Source of the DNA: Falciphora oryzae
Lineage: Eukaryota; Ascomycota; Sordariomycetes; Magnaporthales; Magnaporthaceae
Direction: 5' to 3'
NCBI GenBank assembly: GCA_000733355.1
Contig: JNVV01000008.1
Span: 349,244-413,243, forward strand
DNA length: 64,000 bases
Shown here one piece after another: positions 1,067 through 18,383 of the stretch. The position numbers and the translations under genes are program-made. Position 1 is the first letter of the stretch. Every line of letters starts with the position of its first letter. The notes below the pieces were generated by a model. It was not told the DNA's origin and ran no database searches. It saw nothing but the letters and a program-made list of their open reading frames with translations.

Positions 1067-2861
1067 CTATAGCGAACCCCCGCGCCGCGGGTTCATCCCG
1101 CACGCCATTCCCGTCTGTGCGCGCGCGTGCTCGGTACTGTCCAGAAGCTTGAGACGCAAGTCGTAGTGGGCCTGCGCGAAGCGGAGCGACTCTTCCATGC
1201 CCTCACCCATCTGGTTGATCACTGCGGCAAGCGCAAAAAGGACGTCGGCGTGGACTTCGTCCAAGGCAGATCCCTCCTTCTGACGGATCTCGTGCACCTC
1301 GAGGTAAAACTCTTTGGCAGCATACGCGTCGTTGCGTTCGAAAAGATACCTATGCCCGATAGAGACGATTAGTCCCATTACATATCTGAGAAACTAGGCA
1401 GGTGGTAGTGACCCCTGGGCGTGTCTCAAAGGCTGGATAGATTGATCGATCGAATTTTCCCCTGTTCGATTGTTTTATACGCACCATCCAGCGAAAAGGA
1501 GGAGCTTAGCAAAGAGTGCTTTCGTGGCTGAGTCCCTGGGGCCTGGAACTGGCGACTTCATCACATCTCTGACATGTTGGATGTGTGGCAAGAGCTCTTC
1601 AGATGCATCCCATGTTGCCGTGTTGTGACCGAACTGAAGGAACCCAGTTGGCCAGGCCTCGGCCAAGAGGGACATGGTGAAACGGATCGTCGAAGTTATT
1701 TCGGTTGCTGACATCTGGGTTTGCACAACATCTTGAACCAGACGGTGAAGTGCGATCTTGGCCCCGACCTTGTCCCTCTTGACTCTCTTGACTAGAGACA
1801 CACTTAGAAGATCGGTCCGTCCGTCAATGAAGCTATTTTCGGTTGCTGGAAAGTCCACCGGTTGGTTTTCCAACTTCTTCGGCTGCAGCAGCTTTTCTCC
1901 GATGGCGTCAGGATTGAGGAAGGAGAGGACCTTCAGGAGCGCTAGCGATGATGGAGTGAGGGTTTCCAATGCCCACACGGTGGCGAGAGAGTGCTTATAG
2001 TGGTCCGCTGTCAGATCCGATGCTTTGGCTTCGGCAATCGACTTGATCGAGCTTTGGTTCTCAAGATATCCGGTGAACTCTTCCAGAGTCATGTCCCGTC
2101 TCTCTATTAGATCCGCAATCTGCGTTAGCGCGAGAGGAAGGCCACCGAGTCTCCTGGCAAGCCTCTCGGACCGGCCAATGTTCTCGTCGGTTCCCCCGAG
2201 CCGGAGCAACTCCCGGAGGAATCTTGCCGCCTCTCCATCGTTGAATGGCTCCAAGTCAACACCGACGTGTCTCTCGCGGCTCTTCCCCAATGGATCTCTT
2301 GTTGTTAGCAGTACAGATCCCCTGCTGCCGTACGGGAAATAGCCTTGCGGCAGCTTCAAGTTGTTGGCGTTGTTGAAGATCAGCAACCATGTTGCTTCCT
2401 CATTCTCGCCAGGGTCGCCAGGGGGTGTGTGGGAGTGGGCGGCCGGTCTCTGACGCTTGAAAGGCTTTGACAGCCACTTGCGAACGGCATCGCGACTGGC
2501 CACGTGGTGCTGGGTGATGTTCTTGTCGAAGCCCAGCTGCAAAGAAATTGCAGTGAAACCTTCCATCAGATGCGCGTCGGTTTCGGCTTCGACCCGGAGA
2601 ACGACGTCAAATTCATCCTGCCGAGAGAAGGCGTATTTGTGGCGACTTGTGTCTTTCCAACCCTCCTAAGCCGCAGACGGCAAATATGCTAGGCGTTGGG
2701 CTTGCCGATCCTCGAAGAACCTGGGCAGTAGGGAGGAGGAACTCGTCGATCTTCTTGAAGAATCCGGGATTGGACTGGGCATCGGGCGGCATGAAATGAG
2801 GAACTTCAAGAGCGCCTTGCTCTCGAATGGCCAGCATTTCGGACATGCCGATCTCCTCCAT
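1067..2861 (-). pseudogene. NB-ARC/TPR NLR-like gene with broken P-loop
   Basis: Starts at ATG 2861 with a leader (HFMPPDAQSNPGFFKKIDEF) typical of fungal STAND proteins, then IFAVCGLGG, the front half of Walker A. Here the frame breaks. About 20 bp downstream the reading resumes in another frame as HKYAFSRQDEFDVVLRVEAE. Restoring one base in each of two places would give a standard GKTQ P-loop. The rest is normal NB-ARC: Walker B-like TWLLIFNNAN, SVLLTTRDP, GGLPLALTQIA, then a winged-helix region and an AGW-type entry to TPRs. A 130 bp intron (1352-1481) with GTGCGT donor joins AGW to YLFERNDAYAAKEFYLEV, the first TPR. The gene stops at 1067 after roughly two repeats, short for this family. 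NLRs of this kind control cell-death/non-self responses in fungi. Without the P-loop the ATPase switch should not work, so I call it a pseudogene. Confidence 0.75.
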
Positions 2862-10756: not shown

Positions 10757-12669
10757 TCAAACGAGCACGATCTCTTCACTCTCTGGACCGTCCCGCACGT
10801 AGCTCTCCCCATGCATTATACCGTGCACGTAAACATGCGTCAGCAGCCTATAGCCGCCCGGTGCCGGCCGCAGCAATTGCGGTATCTCCAGGCCGTCGAC
10901 GACCGCGATCTTGTCTCCAGGCTTGACGACGACGGGGAGAGGGTCGGGGGCGACTCCGATAAAGCCACGTTCCGTGTAGAAGAGACACTTTTTCAGGTTT
11001 AATTGAAGTGCCAAACAGAAGAACCCAGAGCCCGGCCCTTGTTGGATGGCAGCAAAACTGCCCGGGTTCAGGGGCTTGGAAAGAACGTCGTACCAATGGC
11101 CAAAATTCTCTGGCCTTGCGCCGTCGTCCAGGAACTCGGGATGGTCCATGACCAGGGTTCGTGTAGGGCCTCCTTCGGGGCCTCTCCGGTGGGGTAGTCG
11201 GACCGTTGGCTCAGCCTGATCCAATTTTGGAACACCAGGTGCGCCTGGAAGCGGAGCAGGTGAAGCTCCATCAGGTGCTCCCTGTCCTGACTGAACACTC
11301 CATCTTTTATTCGCTGCACCTCCGGGTTGTCTCCATCAAGCGACTCCCCTCGGTCTTTGATCGAGTCCACGACCTTGCCCCGAATAATTAGGTTCTGGTT
11401 CGCATCGTCGGAGGAGAAGCGCCAGCGAGGTGCGACCGTTCCCCCGGCCGAGGGATGGTTTTCAAAGAACGGCGACCTCATCTCGTGACGCCATGCAGGG
11501 CTGCTCCAGTCCGGGACCCAGGAAGGGAGATCCTCGCGGCGACTGTCAGACGGTACATGGTACAGGACACGCAAGTTCTTGTCGTGATCAATGCAGGCCG
11601 CGGTGGCCTCTCTGTAGACAGTCGCGATGGTCTTTTGGTAATCAGGCACCGGGAAGGGAACATCCAGCTCCTGAAAAAGCCCGTACAAGGCGAAGACCTT
11701 GTCCTTCGGGTCGCGCGAGCGCTTTTCTCGAGCACTTCCCAATATGGCAGTCATTTTAGGATAATGCTGGATCCTACGCTCGGTAGGGAGCGACTCTGCA
11801 GACCTTTTGACAGCAAGGTACGTCACCAACTGGGTCTGCAACGCCATCGCTTTTATCCAGTGACGCCAGGGATAATCCGCGCGAATTAGAGCCGCGATGA
11901 AGGCGTAAAGGCACACCCACGAGATCGCGTTGTCGCCACAATATATAATAACGCGATCGGCGAACGATAGTGTAACTTCTTGAACGGTCCACATGCGATG
12001 GAACCAGGACCGCTCGAAAATCGCGATGAATGGGTCATCGAAAGAAGTCTTCGCCTCTGGTTTACGCATGTTAATAGCCGAACCCCTTGTGTGTTTCCGG
12101 CGGCAAGTACCCAACGTACGGCGACCGACAAGCCGCAGCTGTTCTACTGCGGGCAGCATCACGTCGTCCAGAGGTCCTTCGGGCAGACGGCCGAGATTAT
12201 TTGGGTTAATCTTGGCAACCACTGCTCTCAAATGCTCTAGAAACTTCTCGAACTTCTCGTCGCTTTCGCCGAGCCAGACGACGACGGAGCTCGCCTTCTT
12301 GAATATCTCCTCCATGATGGCGACCTGCGCGCTCCGCTCGGCGACGGCGCCTTTGCTCTGGTCGATGCAGATGCCGTCGATCCACAGCGCACGTTCCGCC
12401 TCGCTGATCCGGAGTCGGCGCATGGCGGCCTCGCAGTTTGGGGTGACGAGCAAAGTTTCGCCGTTGCACTCGACCGGCCGGGACGGAGACTGAGCATCCC
12501 AGGCGTACGACAAGGCCGTGTAGCCCTCCCTTGCGTCCTCGGGGACGTCGAGGGAAACCTCGGAAAGTCTGCAGCAGAGTGGCGCCGCTAAATCCGGTGA
12601 CGGTTTCAAAAACAGAATCCGCGTGTGTCGTGGGCTGGAGGTAGGAACGTAGCGAAAGGTTCGATCCAT
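10757..12669 (-). pseudogene. HET-domain (heterokaryon incompatibility) gene with one frameshift
   Basis: Single exon from ATG 12669. The HET domain is complete: YTALSYAWD, LWIDGICIDQ, VVVWLGE, RSWFHRMWTVQEV and DPKDKVFALYGL, in canonical order. The frame runs to a stop at 11068 (533 codons). The expected C-terminal part (CLFYTERGFIGVAPDP, GDKIAVVDGLEIPQLLR, YVHGIMHGE) lies in another frame ending at 10757. The change point is near 11161-11166, just after YPTGEAPKEA, where a single lost base explains everything. HET proteins start a cell-death reaction when incompatible fungal cells fuse. The frameshifted product keeps the entire HET domain and loses about 135 residues, so partial activity cannot be excluded. 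A base-calling error is the other explanation. Confidence 0.85.
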
Positions 12670-13027
12670 AGTGGTCAATCGGTTTCGGTTGCAGAAGCCT
12701 GGAGAGGTGAGGACGAAGAGAAGAGGGGGAAATGGAGGAGCGGAACGGAATTTTTTTTTTTTTTGTATTGGGAGATCGGGAACACGTCTAGACGCAGGAG
12801 CCGGTAATGCTCCAAGGCTTTCCCATTTCGGTTTACCGAGCCTGGCCATCAGTTGGTCGGGCAAGAGTTCACGCGGTCGTCTGCCTGGACGGGAGGGCGG
12901 TGCATATAGCACAGTAGAAATGCAGACGGAGGCCTGGCAGACAGTCTGGATGTGGGGGGGTGCTGCCACATCTAGAGCTGGCTGTTCACGGCGGTAGAAA
13001 GATCCTCCCATACCATTCGAGGGATCT

Positions 13028-13060
<33 letters not shown>

Positions 13061-15179: not shown

Positions 15180-16845
15180 TTACTTTAATCTATCGGACAC
15201 CCCTTTTTCTCCCTCATGCGGCGCGTAGTCCCCCGTTGTGTTATAAAACCCATCAGCTCTCTCGCCCGGATTGATGATATCCCCCACGGCATACATCCTT
15301 GTCCATTTCCGAGCCTCGGCTCTGAACTTGCTATGATCCGGATCACGAGCCGTAAAATGGGCAACTACGGGATCGACGACGGGGTCGGACCATCCGGGGG
15401 AATCTAGCAACGCCCGAATAGATAAAAGTGTGTGGTGGATCATAAGCGCCGGAGACCATTGGTCCCCGAGTATATCGACGCAGATAGCGCCGCGCTTGTC
15501 AATATTTGGATGCAAAATTTTAGTGATGAACCAAATGTTAGGTGGCATCACCGGGTAATCCCTCAACCTGATCTGCAGATGGAAGATGCCTCCTTCGTAG
15601 GGGCTGTCTGGCGGGCCTTGGATCGTGCCGTGCACGGCAGTCATGTTGCCCTCGTCGATGAACTTGAAGGTGCAACCTCCGGTTTCGGCTGCGCTCCATT
15701 TTGATAACAATCTGAGCTCGTTCATGACACGCTTGGTTAGTCCCAGCGACAACGGAAAGGCCTCCGTGGTGAGTTTGGTCGCGTTAAGCCGGTTTGAGGA
15801 TACTAGGTGCTCGAAATCCGGCGAGGAGGGCCCGTTGCCCGTCGGTGCGGATTGCGTGGCGCTGCCGGTGTCGGTTCCGCTCGTGCCGGGGTCTCGCTCT
15901 TCAGGTGCGGTATGGAATGTGAAGCGACTCCCAACCGTCCTACCGCATGTATCGAACGGCTGTTCATTCTCTCCACTTGGATCTCGATATCCTCGCAACA
16001 ATGCTGGACGGATAGAGCTCGTTGTCACCATCGCTGACGTGTTGCTCTTGATTGACTGGGCCCTGTTTCCGGCTGCCGATTGTTGGGCGGAGAACCGGGA
16101 CTTGACGCTGAAGAAGCTCGGCATCCTGCGGAGCCAGGCAGTACGGGTCTGCTTTCCTTCGTGGAGGTGGACAGGAGGCGACGATCGTTGCGTATGGGGA
16201 CCGGACAGGTTGTAGTCCTGGGACAAGCAGTGGTATATGTCGTAAACGTGGATGCCGTCTGCGAAGCACTCCTTGAGCTTGTCGGCCACCTTTCTGGTGA
16301 AGCAGCTCTTCCCGGACCTTGGCGTCGTCATGTCGACGCCACAGGCCAGCAAGAGTTCGACCATCCCCTCGTGCCGCTCGCCGACCGCGCTCCCTGCGGA
16401 ACAGCAGTCGAGAATCATCAAAATGTCGGCCTGTTTTTGAGAGAATTGCTGGCGCAGGGCGGACCAGTCCACCGCCGGCTGTCCGTCACTGTGGCTGTTG
16501 AAGCCTTTCTGTTAGGCCGTGCGTTAGGGGCGGGGAGGCTGGCACTTACAGCGACCAAAGGAGATGCCTGTCCGAATTTGTGTATCCGTGTCCGCCGTAG
16601 TAGAGGACGAGCAGGGTCTCTGGCCCGTCCCTCCCAAGGAAATCGAGCAGCCGCTTTGTCAGCTCCGTGGTCGAGTTGGTACCGGGTATCTTCCACTTCT
16701 CGGTGATGAAGTTGTAGTCTTCTTGAAACACGTGCTGGATCCTGTCTAACTCCTCGTCGAAGCGACCGTCACCCTTCTCCCAGCTCAAGAGCAGCACGTG
16801 AGCGTAAAGATACGGGTATTCCCGCTCCGAAGCATGGTCGGCCAT
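15180..16845 (-). CDS. Caspase-like protease domain fused to an E2 ubiquitin-conjugating domain
   Basis: Exons 16845-16550 and 16494-15180, joined in phase across a 55 bp intron (GTAAGT / CAACAG); 536 residues. I chose ATG 16845 (MADHASEREYPYLYAHVLLL) because the open frame further upstream has no ATG. Residues 10-230 are a fungal C14 caspase-like domain: VLLLSWEKGD, then the histidine motif YYGGHGY (His 86) and the cysteine motif LMILDCCSAGS (Cys 130), followed by GVDMTTPRSGKSCFTRKVAD. A serine/threonine-rich linker leads to a complete E2 fold (about residues 365-515): IQGPPDSPYEGG, IRLRDYPVMPPN, then HPNIDKRGAICVDILGDQW with the thioester cysteine, SPAL and a terminal helix FRAEARKWTRMYA. 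Caspase-like domains cleave proteins in cell-death pathways, and E2s pass ubiquitin to targets. One polypeptide carrying both, each with its catalytic residues, is not an arrangement I know as described. It is divergent from the gene at 17360. Confidence 0.85.
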
Positions 16846-17359
16846 CCTTCCTGGAGACGGCCAGTGTGGGGGACAACGGCGACAACCGAATCGCCTTGCC
16901 GGGGTCGGCGGACTGGATGTAACGAGGGCCCGATCGGGGGACTTGGAAAATGGCTTCAAATTGCGGATAATCTTTCGGGACCTCGAGCGGCGCTCAAGGA
17001 ACAGAATCCACAGGATCCCGACGGTTTACGGAGGAGGGTTAAATGGACACACAGCCCAGGCGGTGTCGTTGGTTCGAATCCCCGTCGGGGACCTCCGAGG
17101 GTGGCGTGGGCGCTAACAGCCTCTTGTGGCCAATTACAGTGACCTTATATCACCTCCGTGTGACCGAGAACTTGAGAGGACGTATGGTCCGCGCTTTGCG
17201 CCCGGCAATGCTGCCTGCTGATCAAGCCCGTACATAGCCTCAGTTAAGATCCTGGGGTCAAGGTGGGAGGTGGAGGGGTCGCAACCCTCCAGGGCAGAGC
17301 TCAACTACCAGGCGCTCCACAGCATTTATCCAACAGCTGCCATCTCGACCTTTGAGCAA
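16846..17359. promoter_or_regulatory. Divergent intergenic region of the caspase-E2 / 301-aa pair
   Basis: About 514 bp between two divergent start codons. It contains a perfect tRNA B-box-like GGTTCGAATCC at 17079-17089, but no complete tRNA cloverleaf can be folded around it. Confidence 0.4.
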
Positions 17360-18383
17360 ATGCCCACCCACCCCACCCTCGCCAAGTCCTACGCCGAGGA
17401 CATGAAAGCCCTCGGCCGCGGATATGGCTTCTACGAGCCCGAGGCGGCGGGCAAGGTTCGGCGGGGTATGTGCGGCTACATCGACAACACCGGCGCGTGG
17501 AGACACATCGTCGACCTGACGAGCCGACGAGAGTTGGAAGAACAAGGATTCGCTTCGCCGGGACATCTCGTCGAGGCAACCCCGCGAAAGGACGAATGGG
17601 GCGACGTGACTTCGGAAGGCGTCGACGCCATAAGGTCCGAGTTCGAGGCGGGAGGCGACGCCGGCGTCGTCGGCGTGCAGATCCAATTCGTCCTCGGTGC
17701 TTCCAGGACGTCCGGCGCCGCCTTGATCTGCAACAAGCCCGCGTACCGTGAGGGCTTCGAGCACGAGGGCCCGCTGAGGAGGTGGGCAAAGGAGCACGCG
17801 GCCAGGATCGCCAAGATGTTTCCCGAGGTGAAGACGTACGGATTTCACGTGGTGCAGTCCACGTGGGTCTCGGAGGACGTTTGGATCAATGCGTGGAGAG
17901 GGGCTCAGTCCGAGGTCTCGATCCGTTTCAGTGTTCGCGCCGTCAATGTTGGCGAGGTTGCTCCGGCCCTGTCCTACACCCATAGCCAATCCATTGGTTG
18001 CTGGGTTCATCCGCTCAAGCCCGTAGGTGTTCTCGTCGTAGCATCTCTTATGGCTTGGGCACTGATGTCAGGGTTCAGGACGAAGATGAGCCGGTCCCCG
18101 CAAAAGTAGTCCTGTTTTTCAAGGGGCTCGAGTTCCGTATCCGCGGGACAGTTGCAAACAAGGTTTGGTTTAACTAATCGCAAGATTGATTCGACCGAGT
18201 GGTTGTTCTAACACAGAAGCTTAGGCCTGGATCCACGAGACGCGGGGCGAAGACAGAGGTGAAAGCTTCATCGCCACCAACCCCGAAGACCCGACAATGG
18301 TGTACGCAGTCGAGTGCTTTAGAATCGGGGGCGATGACAGGGACGAGGACGACGAATGTGACGAAAATAACGTCGACGATTAA
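17360..18383 (+). CDS. Fungal protein of unknown function, 301 aa
   Basis: Exons 17360-18022, 18079-18162 and 18225-18383 splice in phase (introns 56 and 62 bp, the second with a CTAAC branch site). Upstream in-frame ATG 17270 is possible; I prefer 17360 (MPTHPTLAKSYAEDMKALGR). Recognisable as a conserved fungal family by the order: YAEDMKALGRGYGFYEPE, CGYIDNTGAWRHIVDL, LICNKPAYREGF, WAKEHAARIAKMFPEVKTYG, VVQSTWVSEDVWINAWRG and a strand-rich second half ending in an acidic tail (DDRDEDDECDENNVDD). No catalytic motif, signal peptide or membrane segment is visible. The family seems mostly beta and uncharacterised. The gene is intact beside several dead neighbours and faces away from the caspase-E2 gene across a shared upstream region, which hints at joint use but does not prove it. 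Confidence 0.7.

Follow-up and report, generated by a model that had tools for sequence, protein, structure and literature searches.

A caspase-like domain and an E2 ubiquitin-conjugating domain in one predicted fungal protein, and the relation of its E2 to HeLo-E2 proteins

Can a caspase-like protease and a complete E2 ubiquitin-conjugating domain reside in one fungal protein, and what would such a combination be used for? The question is raised by a gene in a stretch of 64,000 nucleotides (the window; contig C8, 349244-413243, of a 50.2-Mb genome), for which an earlier note had claimed this combination with both catalytic sets intact. HET and HeLo domains as well as near homologues from fungi indicate that this genome is fungal. 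We find that the minus strand from 16845 to 15180 encodes, with one intron, a protein of 536 amino acids (caspase-E2) which indeed contains both domains and both sets of residues (His86 and Cys130; HPN 427-429 and Cys437). Its features, numbered within the window, are the following:

16550..16845, minus strand: exon 1, encoding the caspase-like N-terminus (residues 1-98 plus two bases of codon 99)
16495..16549, minus strand: intron of 55 bases, GT-AG; the protein around the junction is conserved with the homologue P0001
15180..16494, minus strand: exon 2, remainder of the caspase domain, linker, E2 domain, C-terminal tail and stop
16095..16815, minus strand, interrupted by the intron: caspase-like domain, residues 11-232
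16588-16590, minus strand: His86 in YYGGHG, exon 1
16401-16403, minus strand: Cys130 in DCC, exon 2
15744..16094, minus strand: Ser/Thr-rich linker, residues 233-349, 27% Ser/Thr, low model confidence
15285..15743, minus strand: E2 (UQ_con) domain, residues 350-502, Pfam E-value 4.6e-33
15504-15512, minus strand: HPN of the E2 domain, residues 427-429
15480-15482, minus strand: catalytic Cys437 of the E2 domain
15183..15284, minus strand: C-terminal extension, residues 503-536, with a GxIINPGERxDGFYN-type motif that is common, with variation, to HeLo-E2 proteins

The intron separates the catalytic His from the catalytic Cys and thus interrupts the caspase domain; it is not located at the seam of the two halves. 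An alternative acceptor is found six bases further (intron end 16489) and would shorten the protein by two amino acids to 534 residues; both acceptors are in frame. The first homology search covered approximately 5.8 billion proteins, scored the 7993 candidates sharing most words with the query, and gave 22 matches. One of them, P0001 (a predicted protein of 578 amino acids from Fusarium oxysporum), aligns end to end with 97% query cover and 194 identical residues out of 510 aligned. Identity extends over all parts of the protein, namely the caspase domain (96/222, 43%), the linker (31/105), the E2 core (55/145, 38%) and the tail (11/28). The start methionines of both models coincide, and 13 out of the 31 residues flanking the splice junction (residues 84-114) are identical. 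Since a homologue of the whole length exists in another fungus, caspase-E2 is one gene, as far as the sequence can say, and not a pair of mis-joined neighbours. The same two-domain order, for which the earlier note had proposed a search, is thus present in P0001, and its concern that homologues might all lack one of the domains is not borne out.

The intactness of both catalytic sets is true of the 536-residue protein and is not constant. P0001 has a Trp at the position of the E2 cysteine, and as three residues are missing there its gene model may be wrong around this position. The other 21 matches each reached at most 47% query cover, and none had Pfam calls for both halves. A further search with the caspase region gave no match among 513 candidates; it missed P0001 itself and is therefore too insensitive to be informative on rarity. 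Caspase-E2 and P0001 are the two proteins of this architecture found by our three homology searches. In prokaryote genome contigs and in viral contigs, patterns derived from the caspase part only gave 82 and 160 matches, respectively, none of which was confirmed.

A caspase-hemoglobinase fold was found for the N-terminal half, and a caspase fold also for P0001. By their position in YYGGHG and DCC, His86 and Cys130 form a His/Cys dyad, which we take from the motifs to be the catalytic dyad of clan CD. Both motifs are retained in all seven caspase proteins of an alignment (A2) consisting of the 536-residue protein, P0001 and five selected other caspase matches, with P0016, P0017 and P0020 left out. 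As the half scores 18.8 bits against the curated Pfam cut-off of 21.4 for Peptidase_C14, we use the label “caspase-like” only; the cut-off of Raptor_N was also missed (22.4 of 27). L020 1860-3260 and the proteins P0003, P0004 and P0011 represent further caspase-like proteins of this general kind, and by eye these apparently have another C-terminal region in common, which replaces the E2.

The C-terminal half has the UBC fold and the UQ_con family, and it carries the HPN motif (427-429), the thioester cysteine (Cys437), Asp439, Trp445, Pro447 and Asp469 as well as a WSPA motif. The structure model of exon 2 has a mean pLDDT of 49.4, with 61-85 in the E2 part (blocks of ten residues). UBE2N, UBE2K and UBE2D are among the 50 Foldseek matches listed for this model, and to single-domain chains the TM-scores by target are mostly 0.83-0.88; UBE2N is also among the best sequence matches. 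Phe421 and SPA 446-448 align with Ubc4 (9b55) and presumably take part in E3 binding; Asp439 and Asp469 presumably have a role in lysine transfer. From these residues the E2 half is predicted to be active and should be lysine-using.

Besides P0001, the nearest E2 domains are located C-terminal to HeLo domains. The second search, with the E2 region as query, gave eight matches, six of them with HeLo, P0030 with a VWA domain, and P0028 with only the E2 called. The E2 of P0002 is 47% identical to that of the 536-residue protein, and the E2s of P0023-P0027 and P0029 are 48-53% identical; P0028 has a similar E2, a late start and no HeLo call. Sources of the HeLo-E2 proteins include Fusarium and Cylindrodendrum, and where an annotation is given it reads hypothetical or ubiquitin-conjugating enzyme. 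With P0030 (845 amino acids), VWA joins caspase and HeLo as a partner of a C-terminal E2.

The extension following the E2 (approximately WT-x-x-[YF]A-x-G-x-I-x-NPGER-x-DGF, varying from row to row in alignment A3) is common to the 536-residue protein and the HeLo-E2 group, and it was not seen in the few E2 rows of the own genome which reach that far. Two trees were calculated. Of the 29 E2 matches in the genome they include those which could be fetched and passed an HPN-like motif filter (seven after removal of repeats); the filter removed no protein of the group described here. Five repeat rows of the own genome and the five near-copies P0006-P0010 were left out of the first tree, and P0030 and four own-genome rows additionally out of the second. 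Both trees recover one E2 group, with support values of 94/96 (first tree, P0030 also inside) and 95/93 (second tree). Ten rows make up this group: the 536-residue protein, P0001, P0002 and P0023-P0029. The E2s of the 536-residue protein and P0001 stand apart in the trees, and a common clade of the two is not rejected (p-AU 0.20). The 536-residue protein thus has the E2 clade and the C-terminal extension of the HeLo-E2 family, and no HeLo domain was found in it by a Pfam scan with E-values up to 1.

The HPN motif is kept in 10 out of 10 rows of this group and the catalytic cysteine in 7 out of 10; P0001 (Trp), P0024 (Tyr) and P0026 (Ser) lack the latter. Because of these three rows we consider that the module may occasionally be catalytically dead and catalysis not always needed. 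Judged from the alignments and trees, the E2 is a recurring module attached to two unrelated N-terminal domains, both of them known cell-death folds. A homology of the linkers of caspase-E2 and the HeLo-E2 proteins looked plausible by eye and was dropped, as 2 out of 100 shuffles exceeded the profile score of 16.0; with P0001 added, 6 out of 150 column shuffles exceeded a score of 15.1.

The genome also has a HeLo-E2 gene of its own on contig C4 (434476-436002; HeLo 6.2e-29, UQ_con 4.2e-29), whose E2 groups with P0014 (89/83, second tree) outside the group of the window's E2. Approximately 0.85 kb from it and convergent with it lies an open frame of 1041 amino acids with a CHAT match (436849-439971; L024, L025). 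With 15 CHAT matches in the genome, any particular gene would have one of them at 3 kb or less with a chance of about 0.002, computed post hoc. TPR was not found by Pfam in two scanned pieces of CHAT genes. CHAT proteins form a family of caspase-like proteases; one CHAT protein activates a gasdermin of Podospora anserina, and a het gene of Aspergillus fumigatus encodes a CHAT protein (PMC12881547, PMC11138114). Going by the predicted domains, C4 combines a caspase-type protease in trans with a death domain linked to an E2, and the window does so in cis. On the contig of the window, C8, no CHAT match is listed, neither within approximately 10 kb of the gene nor elsewhere.

Peptidase_C14 and CHAT genes repeatedly occur as neighbours in this genome. 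We merged 11 C14 match rows into 9 distinct loci, and 6 of these have a CHAT match no more than 11 kb away (L026-L031; on C41, C9 twice, C53, C78 and C59). About 0.007 per locus would be expected (binomial approximately 7e-12, computed post hoc). Two of the CHAT matches are partial, namely the one at C9 292382 and the one on C59, which also contains a stop. From the gene order this looks like a caspase-CHAT two-gene cassette. Another E2 match is located on C45, in the second half of an open frame of 792 amino acids without any other Pfam family (L035 874-3249).

In the surroundings of the caspase-E2 gene two frames are of interest:

11071..13056, minus strand: open frame of 662 amino acids with a HET domain (Pfam 1.4e-27), approximately 2.1 kb downstream of the caspase-E2 gene on the same strand
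1478..2665, minus strand: open frame with DUF7779 (Pfam 2.7e-25), further downstream than the HET gene

The HET domain is complete, and DUF7779 presumably occurs in NLR-like proteins. As HET genes are common in this genome (at least 151 matches), the neighbouring one would speak weakly in favor of an immune setting. Genes of housekeeping type (peptidase M20, Elongator Iki1, GH63, SNRNP27) follow on the opposite side of the caspase-E2 gene. At an E-value of 0.01, no Pfam family was found in 4 out of 10 frames of one set and in 10 out of 10 of another (0.2-15.1 kb). A plus-strand open frame of 295 amino acids (17222-18106), divergent from the caspase-E2 gene, has no Pfam family. The claim that the surrounding incompatibility or immunity genes are broken does not apply in general, the nearest HET gene being open over 662 amino acids.

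The analysis provides the architecture, the two-domain homologue, both folds, catalytic residues kept in the 536-residue protein, and an exchange of caspase for HeLo on a related E2. For caspase-E2 we infer, in addition, charging by E1, ubiquitination in cis, protease activity, expression and a role in immunity. We tentatively favor, as a plausible reading somewhat short of an even chance, that it is a modular protein of fungal regulated cell death whose E2 couples a death module to the ubiquitin system. The caspase-like N-terminal domain would be the death module and the C-terminal E2, from the clade common with HeLo-E2 proteins, the regulatory module. Charged by the ordinary E1 of the cell, the E2 might ubiquitinate its own death module, or partners gathered on it. 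Ubiquitination would then determine the lifetime of the death module in the cell as well as the moment of its firing, and the switch could be thrown by the condition of the ubiquitin system or by an attack on it. We assign the death arm to caspase or HeLo and the control arm to the E2 because fungal NLRs have their effector domains at the N-terminus (PMC9815663, PMC10197012).

Several observations argue for this modular reading: the end-to-end homologue P0001, the caspase and E2 folds with their motifs kept, the grouping of the E2 with those of HeLo-E2 proteins, the HeLo-E2/CHAT pair on C4, and the HET gene downstream. Against it stand the 3 out of 10 E2s without cysteine, among them the sole other caspase-E2 found, the score of the caspase half below the Pfam cut-off, the lack of a listed CHAT match on C8, and the unsupported linker similarity. 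A wider form of the proposal is possible and more doubtful. It holds that there is a class of fungal death switches with a built-in E2, in which an E2-plus-tail chassis would take interchangeable caspase or HeLo modules, cell fate would depend on the loading and functioning of the E2 or on tampering with it, and the HeLo-E2 gene beside CHAT would be a split version of caspase-E2.

The roles might also be reversed, with the E2 as the output arm: the N-terminal module would sense or oligomerize and thereby cluster the E2 in its charged form, and the signal would consist of targets ubiquitinated locally, as in the UBE2N/TRAF-type signaling of animals. The nearest folds among the matches listed (UBE2N, UBE2K, UBE2D), the sequence similarity to UBE2N and the cysteine kept in 7 out of 10 E2s would fit this; we nevertheless regard it as unlikely, given that both HeLo and caspase are known as executioner folds in their own right and that three E2s lack the cysteine. 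The latter absence, together with the HPN kept in all ten rows, would agree with the E2 being an integrated bait which mimics a ubiquitin-system target of parasites, so that tampering frees the death module and catalysis is optional. This appears less likely still, for there is no known attacker, most rows keep the cysteine, and its absence could be due to decay or a gene-model error.

The earlier note had suggested that cleavage at the linker could release the E2. In such a case the caspase would do the cutting and the E2 would become soluble, to which the long, Ser/Thr-rich linker of low model confidence between the two domains would lend itself. We consider this improbable, and it does not hold in general: HeLo-E2 relatives have a similar E2 and tail without a protease domain, and a control arm common to a protease and a pore-type domain favors ubiquitination in cis or of partners over cleavage as the common mechanism. 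That the gene is an artefact of two adjacent genes, or a dead or unexpressed relic, is very improbable in view of 536 open codons, the intron inside the caspase domain, and P0001, itself predicted, with both domains in one protein.

For the modular reading, the joining of the same kind of E2 to a caspase here and to HeLo in related fungi suggests, at the level of predicted domains, a little-noticed link of ubiquitin to fungal cell death. The word “ubiquitin” is absent from the main text of a 2025 review on fungal cell death and of a second review on cell death and immunity (PMC12881547, PMC10197012). In a survey of fungal NLR effectors it occurs twice, both times for the Ubiquitin clan of the Crinkler domain (PMC9815663). 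No paper on a caspase-E2 or HeLo-E2 protein was found in the open-access PMC literature. The statement that no such system has been described therefore stands for that literature and has to be qualified by close kin, the HeLo-E2 fusions.

These HeLo-E2 proteins resemble caspase-E2 in their related E2 (47-53%), similar C-terminal extension and common tree group; they differ in the N-terminal HeLo where the 536-residue protein has the caspase, and the linker similarity is unsupported by our test. The HeLo domain, which accompanies the related E2s, is also found in HET-S and other cell-death proteins, and HET-S differs in having a prion domain and not an E2 (PMC10197012). Fungal two-gene clusters of a gasdermin and a protease (S8 or CHAT) likewise encode a caspase-type protease together with a death effector in a modular way (PMC12881547, PMC10197012). 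In contrast to these clusters, caspase-E2 has protease and E2 in one protein, and C8 has no CHAT match listed.

PARP-UBC fusions are known in fungi and similarly carry an E2 in one frame with an unrelated domain, the partner being PARP. One such frame, of 1041 amino acids with an E2 match and a PARP catalytic domain match, is present on C11 (L036 2379-5501).

In animals ubiquitin acts on caspases via separate proteins. One of these, BIRC6 (BRUCE, Apollon), has an E2 domain and controls caspases both by ubiquitinating them and as a direct inhibitor (PMC10827748); it shows that an E2-bearing protein can restrain caspases. BIRC6 is a giant animal protein with a BIR domain and acts on caspases in trans, whereas caspase-E2 has the E2 fused to the caspase-like domain, and no BIR domain was found in it (Pfam scan, E-values up to 1). 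With one type of E2 attached to a caspase in some proteins and to HeLo in others, ubiquitin would be directly linked with fungal regulated cell death in a testable way, and caspase-E2 and the HeLo-E2 proteins are single proteins small enough for study. Modular fungal cell-death proteins are known; what appears to be new is the E2 as one of their modules.
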